The notes beneath the pieces are model-generated. The model saw only the letters and a list, made by a program, of their open reading frames with translations, was not told where the DNA came from and made no database searches. Shown in pieces: positions 1,821 through 34,185 of a DNA stretch of 47,033 nt (positions within the stretch are counted from its first letter, which is position 1; each line of letters begins with the position of its first letter). Source of the DNA: a virus. The translations under genes and the position numbers were made by a program. The stretch lies in IMG/VR virus record IMGVR_UViG_3300027880_000010, positions 1-47,033 of that record, one strand, 5' to 3'.

Positions 1821-2126
1821 ATGCCCCTGTTCTACGGCGAGCACGTGACCCTTCTGATCAACGAGGGCGAAGTGGTCAAGGTCGGTACGGCCGAGGTCTG
1901 GCCGATCCGGATCCGATACGTGTTTGAGCCCGACCGTCAGGTCGGGAAGCTGGTCCTTCAGGGCCACCGCATCTACGTGCGTGACCTGACCTCCTGCGGC
2001 GACCCCCTGCCCGTGCCGTTCGGCGTTGCCGTCTGCGGCCTTGAGGGGGTCCTGGCCTACGCCAGTGGCCTTTTCGGCGAGCCCCGTTACGAGATCAACC
2101 CGGACGGCGTCCGGGTATCAGCCTGA
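1821..2126 (+). CDS. Hypothetical early protein, 101 aa
   Basis: A 101-residue soluble protein beginning with ATG at 1821, preceded by the repeated GAGAGAGAGG element. The sequence is dominated by short beta-strand-like segments with conserved-looking Val, Ile and Gly and no cysteine cluster (two isolated Cys). There is no transmembrane segment or signal peptide. I do not recognise the family. It stands alone between two hairpin-bearing intergenic regions, so it may be translated independently of its neighbours. Confidence 0.7.
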   Translation: MPLFYGEHVTLLINEGEVVKVGTAEVWPIRIRYVFEPDRQVGKLVLQGHRIYVRDLTSCGDPLPVPFGVAVCGLEGVLAYASGLFGEPRYEINPDGVRVSA

Positions 2127-5699: not shown

Positions 5700-5776
5700 G
5701 CCCTCTTAGCCCAAACGGCAGAGGCAAGGGGCACATTAGAACCCCTGAGTTGCCGGTTCGAACCCGGCAGAGGGCA
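5700..5776 (+). tRNA. tRNA-like gene with 10-base anticodon loop
   Basis: The acceptor stem is perfect (GCCCTCT at 5700-5706 with AGAGGGC at 5769-5775, discriminator A). The D arm has GCC/GGC with the GG of the loop, and the T arm is GCCGG-TTCGAAC-CCGGC. The anticodon stem AGGGG/CCCCT is perfect, but it encloses 10 bases (5732-5741) instead of seven. Read from the 3-prime side the loop would offer TAG (Leu, CUA); read otherwise it contains CAT. CCA is not encoded. The three extra loop bases make normal decoding doubtful. Confidence 0.75.
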
Positions 5777-5922: not shown

Positions 5923-5995
5923 GCCTGTGTAGCTCAGCGGAAAGAGCGGCCCTCTTATAAGGGGCAGGTCACCGGTTCGAATCCGGTTACAGGTA
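5923..5995 (+). tRNA. tRNA-Ile, anticodon TAT (decodes AUA)
   Basis: A canonical 73-base cloverleaf. The acceptor GCCTGTG pairs with TACAGGT including two G-T pairs, with discriminator A. The D arm is GCTC/GAGC; the anticodon arm is GCCCT-CTTATAA-GGGGC with TAT at 5956-5958 and purine 37; the variable loop is AGGTC; the T arm is ACCGG-TTCGAAT-CCGGT. It reads AUA, a very rare codon in a high-GC host, so it may relieve a codon shortage or replace a host tRNA that is damaged during infection. CCA is not encoded. Confidence 0.9.
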
Positions 5996-6091: not shown

Positions 6092-6167
6092 GGGGCTGTA
6101 GTCCTAGTGGTTGGAACACCGCCGATAGGTACGACTGGCGACGTGGGTTCGAATCCCACCAGCCCCG
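6092..6167 (+). tRNA. tRNA-like gene with expanded anticodon loop
   Basis: The acceptor stem is perfect (GGGGCTG at 6092-6098 with CAGCCCC at 6160-6166, discriminator G), and the T arm GTGGG-TTCGAAT-CCCAC is perfect. The D arm GTCC/GAAC has one C-A mismatch and retains the loop GG. The anticodon arm is CGCC/GGCG enclosing 13 bases (6124-6136) rather than a five-pair stem with seven bases. Outer bases 6119 and 6141 do not pair. No anticodon can be placed with confidence. It starts 96 bases after tRNA-Ile. Confidence 0.7.
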
Positions 6168-8401: not shown

Positions 8402-8743
8402 ATGCCAAGGATTGGCGCAGGGGCGATGAGGTGGACCGAGAACCATCGGGCCATCCTGATCCACATGTGGGCTGCGGACCGTCCGGAGTTCCTGGTGGCC
8501 CGGCTGACGTCAGAGCTGGAGATCCCCCATGCATCCGTGATTTACGCGCTGCGCCGCATGCTGTTCTGCGGCTATGTCGCCCAGAGAAAGGGCGGCACTA
8601 ACCGGCCGTTCGGCCATGAGTTCAACGGCGACAGCAGCTACGGAACCCTCAGCAACGCCAACCTCTGGAGCATTACCGACAAGGGCAAGGTCAAGGCTTC
8701 CGCCCTGGCCGCCGAGAGGGAAGGTCCGCATGGCGTGCAATAA
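8402..8743 (+). CDS. Winged-helix DNA-binding protein
   Basis: A 113-residue protein from ATG 8402 with GAAGGGAGGACCTG upstream. Residues 12-65 read as a winged helix-turn-helix: a helix RAILIHMW, then LVARLTSELEIPHASVIYALRRM as the HTH, then strands CGYVAQRK with a long wing, and LWSITDKGKVKASAL as the closing helix. The ITDKGK phrase is typical of MarR/PadR-like folds. It is probably a phage transcription regulator. The next gene overlaps it by 14 bases. Confidence 0.7.
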   Translation: MPRIGAGAMRWTENHRAILIHMWAADRPEFLVARLTSELEIPHASVIYALRRMLFCGYVAQRKGGTNRPFGHEFNGDSSYGTLSNANLWSITDKGKVKASALAAEREGPHGVQ

Positions 8744-8990
8744 ACACGCAGACTCAGGTATGGGGCACTGCGGCCCCTGCAACGAGTGGTACTGCAAAGG
8801 CTGCGGGCATTCCTGCCCGAAGGCCCAGCGAGAGGAGAGGGATGAGAACACCAACCCCCCCGGACGCCCAGGAGAGGGTTCTGGGGTACCTGCGGGCTCA
8901 CCCCGAGGGGAGCTCCGTCGTCCAGGTCGTTGTCGGCACCGGACTTACGGAATCGACCGTCCGCAGGAAACTGCCCGCCCTGCGGGCTGA
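8730..8990 (+). CDS. Cysteine-rich zinc-finger protein overlapping the next gene
   Basis: An 86-residue frame from ATG 8730 with GAGAGGGAAGG upstream. The first 31 residues hold seven cysteines and two to three histidines (CNKH, HCGPC, YCKGCGHSC), a pattern like a B-box or treble-clef zinc finger. The remaining 55 residues are proline, glycine and arginine rich and lie wholly inside the following winged-helix gene in another frame. The zinc finger looks real; the tail may be a by-product of the overlap. Confidence 0.6.
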   Translation: MACNKHADSGMGHCGPCNEWYCKGCGHSCPKAQREERDENTNPPGRPGEGSGVPAGSPRGELRRPGRCRHRTYGIDRPQETARPAG

Positions 8991-9114
8991 GGGCCTGGCC
9001 GAGCAGGAGAAGGGCAATAGGGGTCACGGAATCCCGGACGCCTGGAGAGCTACGGGAGAAGGAGAAGATGATCTTGGAGCAACACGAATTGAGGCTGACG
9101 GCTCCGCTGGCTGA
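8842..9114 (+). CDS. Small winged-helix DNA-binding protein
   Basis: A 90-residue protein from ATG 8842 behind GCGAGAGGAGAGGG. Residues 10-70 form a winged helix: ERVLGYLRAHPEGSS, the HTH VVVGTGLTESTVRRKLPALR and AEGLAEQEKG as strand and wing. It resembles small phage MarR- or Rrf2-like regulators. It overlaps the upstream zinc-finger gene by 149 bases and the downstream gene by 47 bases, an unusually deep three-gene overlap. Probably regulatory. Confidence 0.65.
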   Translation: MRTPTPPDAQERVLGYLRAHPEGSSVVQVVVGTGLTESTVRRKLPALRAEGLAEQEKGNRGHGIPDAWRATGEGEDDLGATRIEADGSAG

Positions 9115-9376
9115 CGGCTGGACTCTGGAGGCCGTCGCCTTCGCCGGTCCTCGTCAGGCCGACTGGCAGGTGACCATGGCCCACTGCGATGGCATCTACC
9201 AGGTGGTCCGGACCAAGCCCGGCGAGGGCGAGCAGCCGCCGATCGAGAAGCTGTGGTACTCCGGGCTGAGCAACGAGGCCGCCACCGAGCTCTACCTGCT
9301 GGCGGTCCGGTCCATGACCCGGGAGGCCCGGGGGCTGCCCTGGATGGCAGCGGATGAGATGCCCACCACTGGATGA
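9068..9376 (+). CDS. Hypothetical protein, 102 aa
   Basis: A 102-residue protein from ATG 9068 preceded by GAAGGAGAAG. It begins MILEQHELRLTAPLADGWTL and reads as alternating strands (GWTLEAVAFAG, WQVTMAHCDGIYQVVR) with a helical C-terminus. Not recognised. The deep overlap with the preceding winged-helix gene suggests coupled production. Confidence 0.7.
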   Translation: MILEQHELRLTAPLADGWTLEAVAFAGPRQADWQVTMAHCDGIYQVVRTKPGEGEQPPIEKLWYSGLSNEAATELYLLAVRSMTREARGLPWMAADEMPTTG

Positions 9377-9381
9377 GCCTT

Positions 9382-9485
9382 GAGCAGGTCCCCCCGATCG
9401 GGGCTGTCCGGTGAGCTTCGCTCGCCTGACGGCTAGTCGGACCCCCCTATCGGGGGTGGGGTCCGACGTAGATGGGGACCTGCTC
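9382..9485 (+). promoter_or_regulatory. Multibranched structured leader
   Basis: GAGCAGGTCCCC at 9382-9393 pairs perfectly with GGGGACCTGCTC at 9474-9485, closing a domain that holds inner stems. These are a palindrome CCCCGATCGGGG at 9392-9403, GGTGAGC/GCTCGCC around 9410-9425 and GTCGGACCCC/GGGGTCCGAC at 9436-9467. CCCCCGAT at 9391-9398 can instead pair with ATCGGGGG at 9449-9456, so two mutually exclusive folds exist. The element ends 33 bases before the start codon of the ParB-like gene. Confidence 0.6.
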
Positions 9486-9518
9486 TTTCGCCCGGCAGTC
9501 GTCGGAGAGAGGACCCAC

Positions 9519-10805
9519 ATGACGGACATACTGAACAGCGAGACTCTTGAGGAGAAGCTGCGCGAGGTCGATGACACCGCAGGCTTCGGGGTCAAGTTCA
9601 ACGGCGATAACTTCATCGCCTGCAACAACGGCACCGGCAAGCAGGTCCGGGGGCACGTTGTCCCTGGTGCCAACCGCGCCAACCAGGTGACCCTGGAGCG
9701 GCTGGTCTCCGACCTGCGCTGGCCACCCCAGGCGGCAGCTCCGGTCGTGAACAGGCCCTTCAAGGGGCCCGGCAAGTCTCCGCGTGAGAAGTTCATGGAG
9801 ACCATGCTCAAGGTCGAGAGGCTGGGCAAGGCCGACCCCAGGACGCAGGCTGCCCAGCTGGAGCAGCAGGCGTTCGACCTGACCGGCCTGAACATCACCT
9901 ACGAGCCGACTCTGATCGGCCCCAGGGAGGCGAAGGAGTTCCTCCTGACCTTCGGGGGGCTGGAGAAGGACGGCAGGCCTGCTCAACGGAACTTCAGCCA
10001 GGTCCGGATGAAGAAGTACGTCGATCAGATGATCATCCCGGGAGCCTGGTACCTGAGCCCCGACCCCTGGGCCTACGACCAGGAGGGTATGGGGTTCAAC
10101 GGCCTGCACCGGGCCATGAGCATCGTCTACGCGGGGCTCAGGCTGCCCTTCATGGTCTCCCACGGGTGGACCAGGGATGCGTTCCTGGCCCTGGACAAGA
10201 ACTTGACCAGGACGTCAGCGACATCCCTCTTCCTGTCCGGGGAGAAGCACCCCACCTACCTGGACAGGGCCGCGACCCTTCTGCACAAGGTGGAGAAGGT
10301 CCCGCTCATCTCGGCCTGGTCCGACACCGGGGCCATGCGACCGGAGGAGGCCCGCAAGCTTCAGCTGGTGGAGCAACGGCCCGCACTCCGCGAGGCCGTT
10401 GCCTGGGCTCGCAAGGACGTGCCCAAGATGATGCATAACACCGCCCTGGCGATGTCCTACGCCCTGGCTGCGGAGGCCTGCGGCCAGGGCGTGGTCGACG
10501 GGGTGGTCACCTTCGACATGAACCGCCCGGCCAAGTTCTTCAACAGCCTGAAGCACGGCGACGGGCTCGGCTTCAAGCAGCCCGCCCACACCGTCCGGAA
10601 GTGGATCGAGACAGACGGCAAGAGCGATGGTGGTTATGTTCGCCAGTCCATCCTCCTGCCCAAGGAGGCGTTCCACGCCTACCTGTTCCTGACCGGCTGG
10701 AACCGGGATGTTCTCCGAGAGGAGTGGCCCTCGGTCATGTACAAGGCGAAGGAGATCACCATCCCCAGGGCCCTGCGGCCGGGGGACCTGCCCAAGCTGG
10801 GCTAG
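9519..10805 (+). CDS. ParB/sulfiredoxin-fold-like protein, 428 aa
   Basis: A 428-residue protein from ATG 9519 behind GGAGAGAGGACC. Residues 185-240 match the pattern of a phage/plasmid ParB-like domain family: a turn MGFNGLHRAMSIVYAG where most relatives have NGQHR, then a strand FMVSHGW and DKNLTRTSATSLFL where relatives have D-x-G-x-x-R-S. The C-terminal 190 residues are mostly helical. Relatives are usually annotated as ParB-like nucleases or partition-type proteins, function often untested. It is the largest early gene, with its own structured leader and a strong terminator, so probably an independent unit. Confidence 0.55.
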   Translation: MTDILNSETLEEKLREVDDTAGFGVKFNGDNFIACNNGTGKQVRGHVVPGANRANQVTLERLVSDLRWPPQAAAPVVNRPFKGPGKSPREKFMETMLKVERLGKADPRTQAAQLEQQAFDLTGLNITYEPTLIGPREAKEFLLTFGGLEKDGRPAQRNFSQVRMKKYVDQMIIPGAWYLSPDPWAYDQEGMGFNGLHRAMSIVYAGLRLPFMVSHGWTRDAFLALDKNLTRTSATSLFLSGEKHPTYLDRAATLLHKVEKVPLISAWSDTGAMRPEEARKLQLVEQRPALREAVAWARKDVPKMMHNTALAMSYALAAEACGQGVVDGVVTFDMNRPAKFFNSLKHGDGLGFKQPAHTVRKWIETDGKSDGGYVRQSILLPKEAFHAYLFLTGWNRDVLREEWPSVMYKAKEITIPRALRPGDLPKLG

Positions 10806-31295: not shown

Positions 31296-32261
31296 TTAGG
31301 CGATGGTTGACCACGTCTCGGCGCGGATCAGGGCGTCCTCCCGGTACCGGGCCCAACCCAGGAGGCCGTACCAGCCCATCGGGGTGAAACGCCGGAGGGA
31401 GTCCACGACCTCACCGAACACGATGTGCGGCTCTTCGGCCACGGCCTCCGCCAGGGCCTGCTGCCCCAGGAAGAAGGTCCGGTAGACCTTTGCCGAGGAG
31501 GCACCGTCAAGGGCGGTGGGGAGCCGAGGGGACTCGATGTAGTAGCACCCCTCGTAGACCCCGATCGACCCTGCCCAGATGCTTTCCGCACCCGAGAAGT
31601 TGTGGGGATCCCGCCAGGCCGCAGCCCCAGTTTCAGCCCTGAGGTCGTGACTTACATCAGGGTGGACCCAGCAGCCGAACAGCTCGCCCTGCCGGGGGAC
31701 CACCTTGTTGGTCCGGAACTTGGCGGTGGCCAGACGCGGGATCTTGGACGTGAAGGAGTCAGTAGCTGCGCCAGTGATGGCACCAGTGGTGCCAGCGCCG
31801 CCGGTCAGCATGTCGGACTTCACGACGCCAGAGTTCATCCGGATGACGTGGGTGCCTGCCGCCAGGATGGGGGACACCAGGGAGTCCAGGGAGTCCCTCA
31901 TGTTGTACGCGGCGATGTTCGCCACGCCCTCGTCTACGTTGGACAGGGCCACCAGCTGGAGCTTCCTCGTCATGAGGATGGCGTTGCCGTACTCCTGGAG
32001 GGTCACCGTGACCGAGGAGGTGGACGGCACCGCGACAGCCGTGACGTCAGCGGTTTCCGTGAGGGGGGTCGTTGCCACGCTCAGGTCGTTGTAGAACTGC
32101 ATGACGACGCTGGAGCCAGGCATGGCCTGCTGGCCTGGGGATTTGTCCGCCAGCGCCCGGAAGCAGGGCATGGAACGAAGCTTGTACTCGACCAGACGAT
32201 CGTAGGCGGTCTGGACGAGAGCGGTACCCAGGGATGCTGGGTCTGTAGAGGTAGCAGTCAT
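31296..32261 (-). CDS. Major capsid protein
   Basis: A 321-residue protein from ATG 32261. Sequence style fits the HK97-fold group often called N4-gp56-like: an N-terminal arm with MTATSTDPASLGTALVQTAYD, a spine-helix region DEGVANIAAYNMRDSLDSLV near 130-150, a P-domain strand set and a C-terminal FLGQQALAEAV...EVVDSLRRFTPMGWYGLLGW close to its typical ending. Length matches small HK97-fold capsids. The preceding gene is scaffold-like. It assembles the icosahedral shell. Confidence 0.8.
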   Translation of the reverse strand: MTATSTDPASLGTALVQTAYDRLVEYKLRSMPCFRALADKSPGQQAMPGSSVVMQFYNDLSVATTPLTETADVTAVAVPSTSSVTVTLQEYGNAILMTRKLQLVALSNVDEGVANIAAYNMRDSLDSLVSPILAAGTHVIRMNSGVVKSDMLTGGAGTTGAITGAATDSFTSKIPRLATAKFRTNKVVPRQGELFGCWVHPDVSHDLRAETGAAAWRDPHNFSGAESIWAGSIGVYEGCYYIESPRLPTALDGASSAKVYRTFFLGQQALAEAVAEEPHIVFGEVVDSLRRFTPMGWYGLLGWARYREDALIRAETWSTIA

Positions 32262-32288: not shown

Positions 32289-32783
32289 CTATGAGCCCTG
32301 GGCAGCACCCTTTCGAATGAGTGCCCAGATCTCCTCTTCAGAGGAGGCCGCCATCAGATCGGCCTTACTTACCTGCCGCGTCTGTCCCTTGATCTCACCG
32401 GTCGCTGCAACGTTTTGCATCTGGTTCATCGTCTGGACCTCAGGGGGGACCTCCTGGTCCTCCGGTCCGCCAGCCGAAGACGTGGTGCCTTGGGGTCCAG
32501 CCCCGAAGACATCCCCGTACTCCTTCAACCATTCACCTACCGCTTCTGCGGTGGGCTCCACGTCGCTCGGTACAAGGAAAGCAACCTTCTCGTTGACTCC
32601 GGCTCCCTTGAGGAGTTCTGACAGTGCCGTCTTCCGGCTGGTCTGTCTGAGCTTGGCGACCTCTTCGAGCAACTCCTTCTCGGCCTTGGACTTGGCCTTG
32701 AGCTGCTTGCGGAGGTCCTGCACCAGACGGTTGCCGTCCTGCGGCTGGTCGTCTTCGTCCTCGTAGTCGTCGTAGTCGGTCAT
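32289..32783 (-). CDS. Scaffolding-like protein, 164 aa
   Basis: A 164-residue protein; ATG 32783 is chosen because GAAGAGGGCGAG precedes it, giving MTDYDDYEDEDDQ. An acidic N-terminus is followed by a coiled coil (LRKQLKAKSKAEKELLEEVAKLRQ, residues about 20-45), a flexible Gly/Ser/Pro middle and a helical C-terminus. Size, charge pattern, coiled coil and position directly upstream of the capsid gene fit a scaffold that guides shell assembly and then leaves. Confidence 0.75.
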   Translation of the reverse strand: MTDYDDYEDEDDQPQDGNRLVQDLRKQLKAKSKAEKELLEEVAKLRQTSRKTALSELLKGAGVNEKVAFLVPSDVEPTAEAVGEWLKEYGDVFGAGPQGTTSSAGGPEDQEVPPEVQTMNQMQNVAATGEIKGQTRQVSKADLMAASSEEEIWALIRKGAAQGS

Positions 32784-32891
32784 GCTCGCCCTCTTCGTTT
32801 CACAGACCATGCCTGCCCCAGGGGATGGGGTCGGTCAGCTCCTGCTACCGGACTCACTACACATCGGGGGGCCGGTGGATCCCCGAATGGG
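32784..32891. other. Spacer between tRNA-like pair and scaffold
   Basis: A 108-base gap with no reading frame of note. TCGGGG/CCCCGA around 32867-32886 forms a short hairpin that could serve as the end of the tRNA-like transcript or as a processing site. Confidence 0.4.
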
Positions 32892-32961
32892 CCACACACC
32901 CTGGACTCGAACCAGGAACCACCCGAAGTGGCGGGCGCTCTGCCAATTGAGCTAGTGCGTG
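32892..32961 (-). tRNA. tRNA-like gene with shortened anticodon arm
   Basis: The acceptor stem is perfect (CACGCAC at 32961-32955 with GTGTGTG at 32899-32893), starting with a C-G pair. The D arm is GCTC-AATTGGCA-GAGC and the T arm CCTGG-TTCGAGT-CCAGG. Between them only 20 bases remain, folding best as CCCG-CCACTT-CGGG: a four-pair stem with a six-base loop. That is three bases short of a normal anticodon arm, so no standard anticodon can be read. CCA is not encoded. It lies six bases after the next tRNA-like gene within the late operon. Confidence 0.65.
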
Positions 32962-32967
32962 AAAACG

Positions 32968-33044
32968 CGGCGCGTACAGGACTCGAACCTGTGACCTCCC
33001 GTGTCCCCTCAGACCGGGCGCTCTACCAACTGAGCTAAGGCACC
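32968..33044 (-). tRNA. tRNA-like gene with expanded anticodon loop
   Basis: The acceptor GGTGCCT pairs with ACGCGCC with one C-C mismatch, discriminator G. The D arm GCTC-AGTTGGTA-GAGC, variable AGGTC and T arm ACAGG-TTCGAGT-CCTGT are all normal. The anticodon arm is CCCG/CGGG around 13 bases (GTCTGAGGGGACA), the same four-pair, 13-base design as the gene at 6092-6167. CTGAGGG could offer GAG (Leu), or GTC/GAC could pair inside with a bulge. Decoding is doubtful. Confidence 0.65.
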
Positions 33045-33050
33045 GACGGG

Positions 33051-33071
33051 GGTCCGCCCGTAGAGCGGACC
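33051..33071 (-). terminator. Hairpin before tRNA-like pair
   Basis: GGTCCGC at 33051-33057 and GCGGACC at 33065-33071 form seven perfect pairs. On the minus strand it lies between the stop of an internal virion protein gene and the first tRNA-like gene and may release the tRNA precursor. Confidence 0.5.
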
Positions 33072-33120
33072 TCCTGGTCCAGATAGTAACCCCTAAATGA
33101 CCACCCAGTCATCTATGGCG

Positions 33121-34185
33121 TTAGTACTCACCTCTGGACTTCTGGGACAGGCCCTTCTCTCCAAGGCCCCCGGTGCCCTGGTACTGGGCCATCTCCAGGT
33201 TGGCGAGCCGCCTGCGCTTCTGGCTGGCCAGCTCGTTGCGGCCCAGGAACTCATCCTCCAGAGTCCCCTGGTCCACCTGCTCGCCGTACATGGAGGACAG
33301 GCTGTTGGCCCGGGGCAGTGCTGCTGCCACGGTGGAGTACGCCTGGTGGGCGAACTGGGAGTCGATCCCGCCGTTAGCGTCGGCCAGCAGGCTGTAGAAC
33401 TTGTTCGCCCGGTCCTGGTTGAACCCGAGGCCAGCGCCGAGGGATGCGGCACCCAGCTTGGAGGTGCCGATGGTCTTGCGCAGGACGGGCAGGGCCCGGT
33501 TCTGGTCGAGCATCGCCGCCGTGAGGTCCCCGGTGTTCAGGCCCATCTGCCCAAGGGCTTCCAGGTAGTGGGGGTCGCTGTTGAGGGCGGCGTCGGTCGC
33601 GAACCCGACTCGCTCGGAGATCTCGGTGGCTGAGACGTTGTTCCCGATCCAGCTGGCGAAGTCGTCCGGGGAGTCGTAGAAACCCTTGGGCAGGCCAGCA
33701 CTCTGCAAGATGCGCTGGTAGGCATCCTCCACCTGGAGGTAGTCGGCCGGCTCCAGGGCGGCATAGCCGTTCTTGATCCTGGCCTCGTTGCCGCTGAACC
33801 TCTTCTTGTAGGCGTCGCTCTTGCGGAGCTCCAACAGGATCTGGTTAGTGCTGTAGTCCTGCTGGATCATCCCGATGACCGTGCCGGTCAGGGAGTCCAG
33901 GCCCCAGGCCTGGAGCATCATCGTCAGGGTGGCCAGGGCATCGGCCTGGTACTTCTCGTTCTCCTTGGCGGCTGCCGCGTCCTTCTCGGCCTTCGCTGCG
34001 GCGTCCTTGGCAGCCGCCTTCGCCTTGGCGTCGGCGACCGCCTTCTTGATCGCGTCCTGGACCTGCTTGCCGCCGAACCCCGAGGACTTCGGCTTGGGCT
34101 TGGGCTTGAAGGGAACGTCGGGGTCCGGCGGGGGCCGCCGGGCCGCGCCGACCGTGCTCGTCAGTGCGTTCTCGGTGATCGGCAT
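33121..34185 (-). CDS. Internal virion protein candidate, 354 aa
   Basis: A 354-residue protein from ATG 34185. Domains in order: a Pro/Lys-rich start (DPDVPFKPKPKPKSSGFG), an Ala/Lys-rich helix about 40-80 (KAKAAAKDAAAKAEKDAA), then a helical body. The segment LLELRKSDAYKKRFSGNEAR near 117-136 resembles the LRNTKWFK...YRRRF segment of the next upstream protein. This motif family is common in phage internal or tail-tip proteins. It probably is packed in the capsid and ejected. Confidence 0.55.
   Translation of the reverse strand: MPITENALTSTVGAARRPPPDPDVPFKPKPKPKSSGFGGKQVQDAIKKAVADAKAKAAAKDAAAKAEKDAAAAKENEKYQADALATLTMMLQAWGLDSLTGTVIGMIQQDYSTNQILLELRKSDAYKKRFSGNEARIKNGYAALEPADYLQVEDAYQRILQSAGLPKGFYDSPDDFASWIGNNVSATEISERVGFATDAALNSDPHYLEALGQMGLNTGDLTAAMLDQNRALPVLRKTIGTSKLGAASLGAGLGFNQDRANKFYSLLADANGGIDSQFAHQAYSTVAAALPRANSLSSMYGEQVDQGTLEDEFLGRNELASQKRRRLANLEMAQYQGTGGLGEKGLSQKSRGEY

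Follow-up and report, generated by a model that had tools for sequence, protein, structure and literature searches.

We found that two tRNA-like genes with abnormal anticodon arms, A and B, lie in tandem directly upstream of a structured leader RNA that precedes the scaffold gene of a 47,033-base virus record (hereafter the window, meaning the whole stretch of DNA analysed). Comparison across relatives strongly supports the leader as a conserved structured RNA, which is apparently undescribed. For A and B, we put at about even the chance that they are tRNA-shaped punctuation of the late transcript, which would free a scaffold-capsid mRNA with the leader at its 5′ end. The features on which this proposal rests are collected in Table 1.

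Table 1. Features of the window discussed in the text, with positions, strand and supporting details
Feature	Position	Strand	Details
Major capsid protein gene	31296..32261	(-)	phrog_1357, E 7.6e-66; 52% identical to Streptomyces phage FlowerPower
Scaffold protein gene	32289..32783	(-)	phrog_7813; Dennebes and JPandJE annotate the gene in the same position as scaffolding protein
Conserved structured scaffold leader RNA	32781..32891	(-)	P1, PK1, P2, P3 and Shine-Dalgarno region; covariation, covariance model
Leader P2, enclosing P3	32802..32845	(-)	P2 GCAGG (32845-32841) with TCTGT (32806-32802)
Leader hairpin P3	inside P2, 32802..32845	(-)	long; CCCCA/TGGGG, C-rich loop
Leader pseudoknot PK1	32847..32876	(-)	P1-loop strand ACCGG (32876-32872) paired with CCGGT (32851-32847)
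Leader helix P1	32862..32889	(-)	CAT-T-CGGGG (32889-32881) with CCCCG-ATG (32869-32862)
tRNA-like gene A	32892..32961	(-)	ARAGORN (called 32888-32962), sequence reading, fold
tRNA-like gene B	32968..33044	(-)	ARAGORN; Rfam tRNA 49.0 bits; acceptor 6/7, D 4 bp, T 5 bp
Gene 5′ of A and B	33121..34185	(-)	phrog_8424, family of unknown function
tRNA-like genes of the rightward early region	5700-5776, 5923-5995, 6092-6167	(+)

The first-pass annotation had described two leftward tRNA-like genes, one long and one short in the anticodon arm, and both points hold: ARAGORN places A and B on the minus strand with six bases between them, and the spacing from the D stem to the T stem, normally 23 nt, is 27 nt in B (4 nt long) and 20 nt in A (3 nt short). 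By sequence reading, gene A has a fully paired acceptor (7/7, CACGCAC/GTGTGTG), D stem (4/4) and T stem (5/5), a 6-nt anticodon loop and a discriminator G at 32892, followed by CC and then by the leader; it received no score from the Rfam tRNA model (RF00005), even at E<=10. Gene B, whose score with the same model is above the gathering threshold of 29, has one C.C mismatch in its acceptor and complete D (4/4) and T (5/5) stems. The Rfam alignment gives B a 4-pair anticodon stem with 13 unmodelled bases, and its minimum-energy fold is an 8-pair arm capped by a GAGG tetraloop. A normal 5-bp anticodon stem with a 7-nt loop was found neither in A, with its 6-nt loop, nor in B, with 13 nt or a tetraloop, and neither the fold nor the Rfam alignment allowed a paired stem bearing a 7-nt loop to be drawn convincingly for either gene. 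It is very improbable that A and B are expanded-loop tRNAs that read four or more bases as frameshift suppressors: B can be drawn with a loop of 13 nt and the early gene at 5700 with one of 8 to 10 nt, both above 7 nt, but A is short instead of long and the best fold of B ends in a tetraloop.

The bodies of A and B are more than chance. A scan for an acceptor combined with D and T arms, the range of which just missed gene A owing to its short arm, returned no false match in 0.45 Mb of shuffled sequence. A Y RNA (YrlA) at this position was rejected, the match being sub-threshold (23.2 bits, threshold 69) and arising because the T arm of B adjoins the D arm of A; ARAGORN found no tmRNA in the window. 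A strong GC-rich hairpin (GGTCCGC/GCGGACC; 33045..33080, minus strand; -20.3 kcal/mol, z -2.3) lies directly 5′ of gene B.

Gene B had also been described as repeating a four-pair, 13-base loop design of the early gene at 6092, and this repetition had been taken as an argument against random decay. We rejected a common 13-base design: the D-T spacings differ (27 nt in B, 25 nt at 6092), and the minimum-energy folds depart from the proposed drawing, that of 6092 breaking the D arm. With the shared design gone, the argument built on it is unsupported. Within the early cluster the gene at 5923 (Ile, TAT) is the only one with a normal anticodon arm, and of the five tRNA-like genes in the window four are aberrant, no two in the same way (D-T spacings 20, 25, 26 and 27). 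For the gene at 5700 the best alignment is with the tRNA-Leu(TAG) encoded by Streptomyces phages of the subfamily Beephvirinae, a tRNA that itself has no long variable arm; from this resemblance, it may be a Leu tRNA carrying extra loop bases.

The pair stands between the scaffold gene and the gene at 33121-34185, as had been noted, though the label of internal virion protein given to the latter did not survive: the gene matches a family of unknown function and is annotated as hypothetical in relatives. The capsid protein of the window is 52% identical to those of Streptomyces podoviruses of the Beephvirinae and 62-66% identical to those of three metagenomic contigs, L005-L007. In the Beephvirinae, which are cultured Streptomyces phages such as FlowerPower, Manuel, Immanuel3 and Abafar, the same slot holds 14-23 annotated tRNAs (14 in Abafar, up to 23 in WRightOn) on the same strand and between the same flanking genes as A and B, and L005-L007 carry 2-3 tRNAs there. 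The window shares the position that characterises these arrays, on the late strand with the pre-scaffold gene on one side and the scaffold-capsid pair on the other. Judged from these genomes, the placement of A and B is ancestral and ordinary, and their abnormal anticodon arms are particular to the window genome: among the tRNAs of relatives whose arm could be parsed all anticodon loops are 7 nt, whereas the window has two tRNA-like genes, both aberrant. Conservation of position and of loop length in related genomes had been proposed as a check, and these genomes share the position but not the abnormal loops. Because the window genome alone is aberrant, selection on the A and B bodies is unmeasurable in close relatives.

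These arrays in the same slot also feed the main rival to punctuation, in which A and B are functionless remnants of a tRNA array of the Beephvirinae type, their bodies still intact-looking since decay is recent or since tRNA finders report only intact-body cases. We regard this as a serious possibility, though one short of an even chance. It agrees with the different lesions of the four aberrant window genes, with the acceptor mismatch in B, with the pseudo-tRNA annotated within the array of phage JXY1 and with a 5′ fragment in L006 (6985-7035) that resembles the tRNA-Met of L005, apparently the remnant of a tRNA that decayed in this slot. It is harder to reconcile with the perfect body of A, where the lesion is confined to the anticodon arm, with the adjacency that A keeps to the leader, and with the persistence, in the slot of relatives, of anticodon-less bodies with covarying acceptors (see below).

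It is improbable, on the other hand, that A and B are working tRNAs with anticodon arms altered to escape host anticodon nucleases. Mutations in the anticodon loop of phage tRNAs have been proposed to bring about such escape (van den Berg 2023, PMC10264068), and the authors describing Abafar cite the idea for its tRNAs (PMC11536984). However, the published cases are loop mutations in recognisable tRNAs, and a search of the text of the former paper (PMC10264068) returned no mention of insertions or loop length, while A and B have no convincing 7-nt loop and the parsed loops of relatives keep this length throughout.

The leader fills the ~110 nt between gene A and the scaffold start, is conserved in sequence and length, and is found upstream of the scaffold gene in nearly all relatives examined, many of which have no tRNA there. 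In an alignment of 48 distinct leaders (A3), 18 of the 21 pairs assessed showed changes on both sides, 86% of cells were paired as against 26-46% when the partners were slid by 1-3 columns, and none of 500 shuffles gave a covariation score as high as that observed. P1 is just 67% paired in this alignment, since its register is offset by one in subgroups. In a 26-leader alignment that takes in seven cultured Streptomyces phages, the four core pairs of PK1 are 100% paired in all sequences, with double changes at each. The window has the full set of elements that defines the family (P1, PK1, P2 and P3, immediately ahead of the scaffold start), and its leader scores 64.7 bits (E 4.5e-12) with R2, a covariance model built from A3 with the window in the training set. 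Applied to loci fetched through the phrog_8424 gene and not through the capsid gene, some of which (e.g. L096 and L100) also belong to the training set, R2 gave one match per locus, just downstream of that gene, and no match elsewhere in the 727 kb of these loci at E<=1. New branches of the leader came from this set (L103, L127, L131/L136/L146, L135/L139, L119, L147/L149 and L154). The leaders of the Streptomyces phages are too diverged for R2 and therefore score 17-21 bits. Rfam 15 gave no match for the leader at the gathering threshold and none credible at E<=10.

A self-cleaving ribozyme, considered because of the pseudoknot, was rejected as no Rfam ribozyme matched the leader. The P3 loop is complementary to the Shine-Dalgarno sequence over mostly 4-5 nt across lineages, with a matching change in the Streptomyces phages (CCUAG/CUAGG); in most lineages this complementarity is suggestive only, and with just 3 pairs in the window we make no claim that the loop masks the Shine-Dalgarno sequence. 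The scaffolding protein of phage P22 is under autogenous control, and by analogy autogenous control of the leader by the scaffold protein is an attractive model. The P22 leader is likewise structured and directly before the scaffold gene, and T4 gene 32 has a pseudoknot with the ribosome-binding site downstream, as in the window; both likenesses are architectural, with no sequence relation shown to the window leader.

At the junction with the leader in the window, L005, L006, the Beephvirinae (where the last tRNA of the array ends in A73-CC) and L102, the tRNA body ends in N73-CC and P1 follows immediately. Most lineages that have a tRNA or a tRNA-like body show this arrangement. The junction of L007 has one extra nucleotide, and it is slightly longer than CC in a few tRNA-like lineages, e.g. 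L131, L154 and L099. At the alanine-type structures described below, several junctions read CC and others CTC, CAC or CTCC. In L172 the tRNA lies ~90 nt upstream of the leader and the two do not abut. In relatives without a tRNA-like element, which include most low-GC relatives, the leader comes directly after the upstream stop codon, indicating that cutting is not essential to leader function. The mean best score for a sigma-70-type promoter at the leader in such lineages is 7.57, compared with 7.53 in controls, so there is no general promoter signal; individual exceptions are L156, L167 and L067. In L156 and L167 the slot has no tRNA-like element but a small hairpin and a promoter-like sequence of the TTGACA type, no more than about 80 nt upstream of a weak leader match (6909, 6915).

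In about eight lineages in which ARAGORN found no tRNA, the bases upstream of the leader hold an anticodon-less tRNA-like structure. It consists, in order, of a 7-bp acceptor, a single-stranded AGGTYAGA that resembles a D loop (the structure having no D stem), a single hairpin variable in length and sequence, a T arm with the loop TTCRATT, A73 and the leader. Among 15 sequences of relatives, all acceptor cells are paired (100%), with covariation at pairs 4-6 and with G1-C72, G2-C71 and G3.U70 invariant (15/15); the T stem is 94.7% paired and has double changes at four of its five pairs. The first-pass annotation had named loss of acceptor/T-arm pairing among relatives as evidence against its reading, and in these structures the pairing is kept and covaries. 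Most of them start 5-7 nt past the upstream stop codon (17 nt in L127) and they end within about 2-4 nt of the leader. A 7-bp acceptor with a T arm arose by chance in 1 of 9000 shuffled-sequence trials. The Rfam tRNA model gave no score to any of the four alanine-type structures tested (L119, L135, L136 and L099), and L135 matched tmRNA models weakly, below threshold. A related three-helix form in the slot of L103 and an acceptor/T-arm minihelix-like form in L014 are less certain. When viral contigs were scanned for the pattern, nearly all matches were these slot loci; one more was L182, a different phage in which an anticodon-less structure with G3.U70 and an encoded CCA (1860-1935, plus strand) has no leader match beside it.

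Known tRNA-Ala conserve G1-C72, G2-C71, G3.U70 and A73, with G3.U70 as the main alanine determinant (PMC9976931). In many lineages the same features would make the slot element a tRNA-like RNA built for alanine charging by the host, and as far as could be found in the literature searched, these structures would be an unreported kind of phage RNA. They share a G3.U70 acceptor, A73, a T arm and the lack of a D stem with the tRNA-like domain of tmRNA (ssrA) but differ from tmRNA in being 75-87 nt long, in having no message part and in scoring below every Rfam cut-off. Neither A nor B belongs to this type: G3.U70 is absent from both, G3.U70 with A73 was not found in the window, and A has C3-G70 as its third pair and G as its discriminator. 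We tentatively propose that in a group of tailed phages an alanine-type anticodon-less RNA, serving as a cut site or sensor, is fused to a leader that controls scaffold and capsid expression; the aberrant window tRNAs would represent this device in an intermediate or convergent state.

What RNase P and RNase Z read in a tRNA is its acceptor/T-arm body and not the anticodon, so that the anticodon arm of an element cut by them would be free to drift. In the punctuation that we propose for A and B, host RNase P together with RNase Z (or 3′ tRNA-processing exonucleases) would recognise the two bodies and excise them, leaving a scaffold-capsid mRNA with its 5′ end 2 nt before P1 of the pseudoknotted leader. 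With two bases ahead of a stable pseudoknot, such an mRNA should resist 5′-end-dependent decay, and the leader would then govern the stability of the scaffold-capsid message, its translation, or both. Decoding would not be what selection maintains here, hence the abnormal anticodon arms of A and B.

Intact bodies, a conserved slot, the N73-CC-P1 adjacency, a covarying leader and covarying anticodon-less structures all argue for punctuation, while the C.C mismatch in the acceptor of B, the dissimilarity of A and B to the alanine type and the tRNA standing off the leader in L172 argue against it. The earlier suggestion that A and B could mark processing points for head-gene mRNA ends gains partial, indirect support: the slot carries tRNA arrays, one to three tRNAs or anticodon-less structures at the leader, but many relatives have no tRNA-like element there and the 13-base argument does not contribute. 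In mitochondrial transcripts, mRNA ends are set at intergenic tRNAs, which RNase P and RNase Z cut. The arrangement proposed for the window likewise has tRNAs between genes; it differs in belonging to a phage late operon, where the cutting is predicted from sequence.

The usual explanations of phage tRNAs invoke codon usage or an escape from tRNA nucleases. If punctuation is correct, some of them would have a concrete non-decoding role. The leader is in addition a strongly supported, apparently undescribed RNA for capsid genes. As it is present in cultured Streptomyces phages, it is directly testable.

A minor observation concerns phage JXY1 (NC_048854.1, L179), whose major capsid gene is annotated in two pieces (locus 8654-9522) whereas relatives have one gene; the split is possibly a sequencing frameshift.
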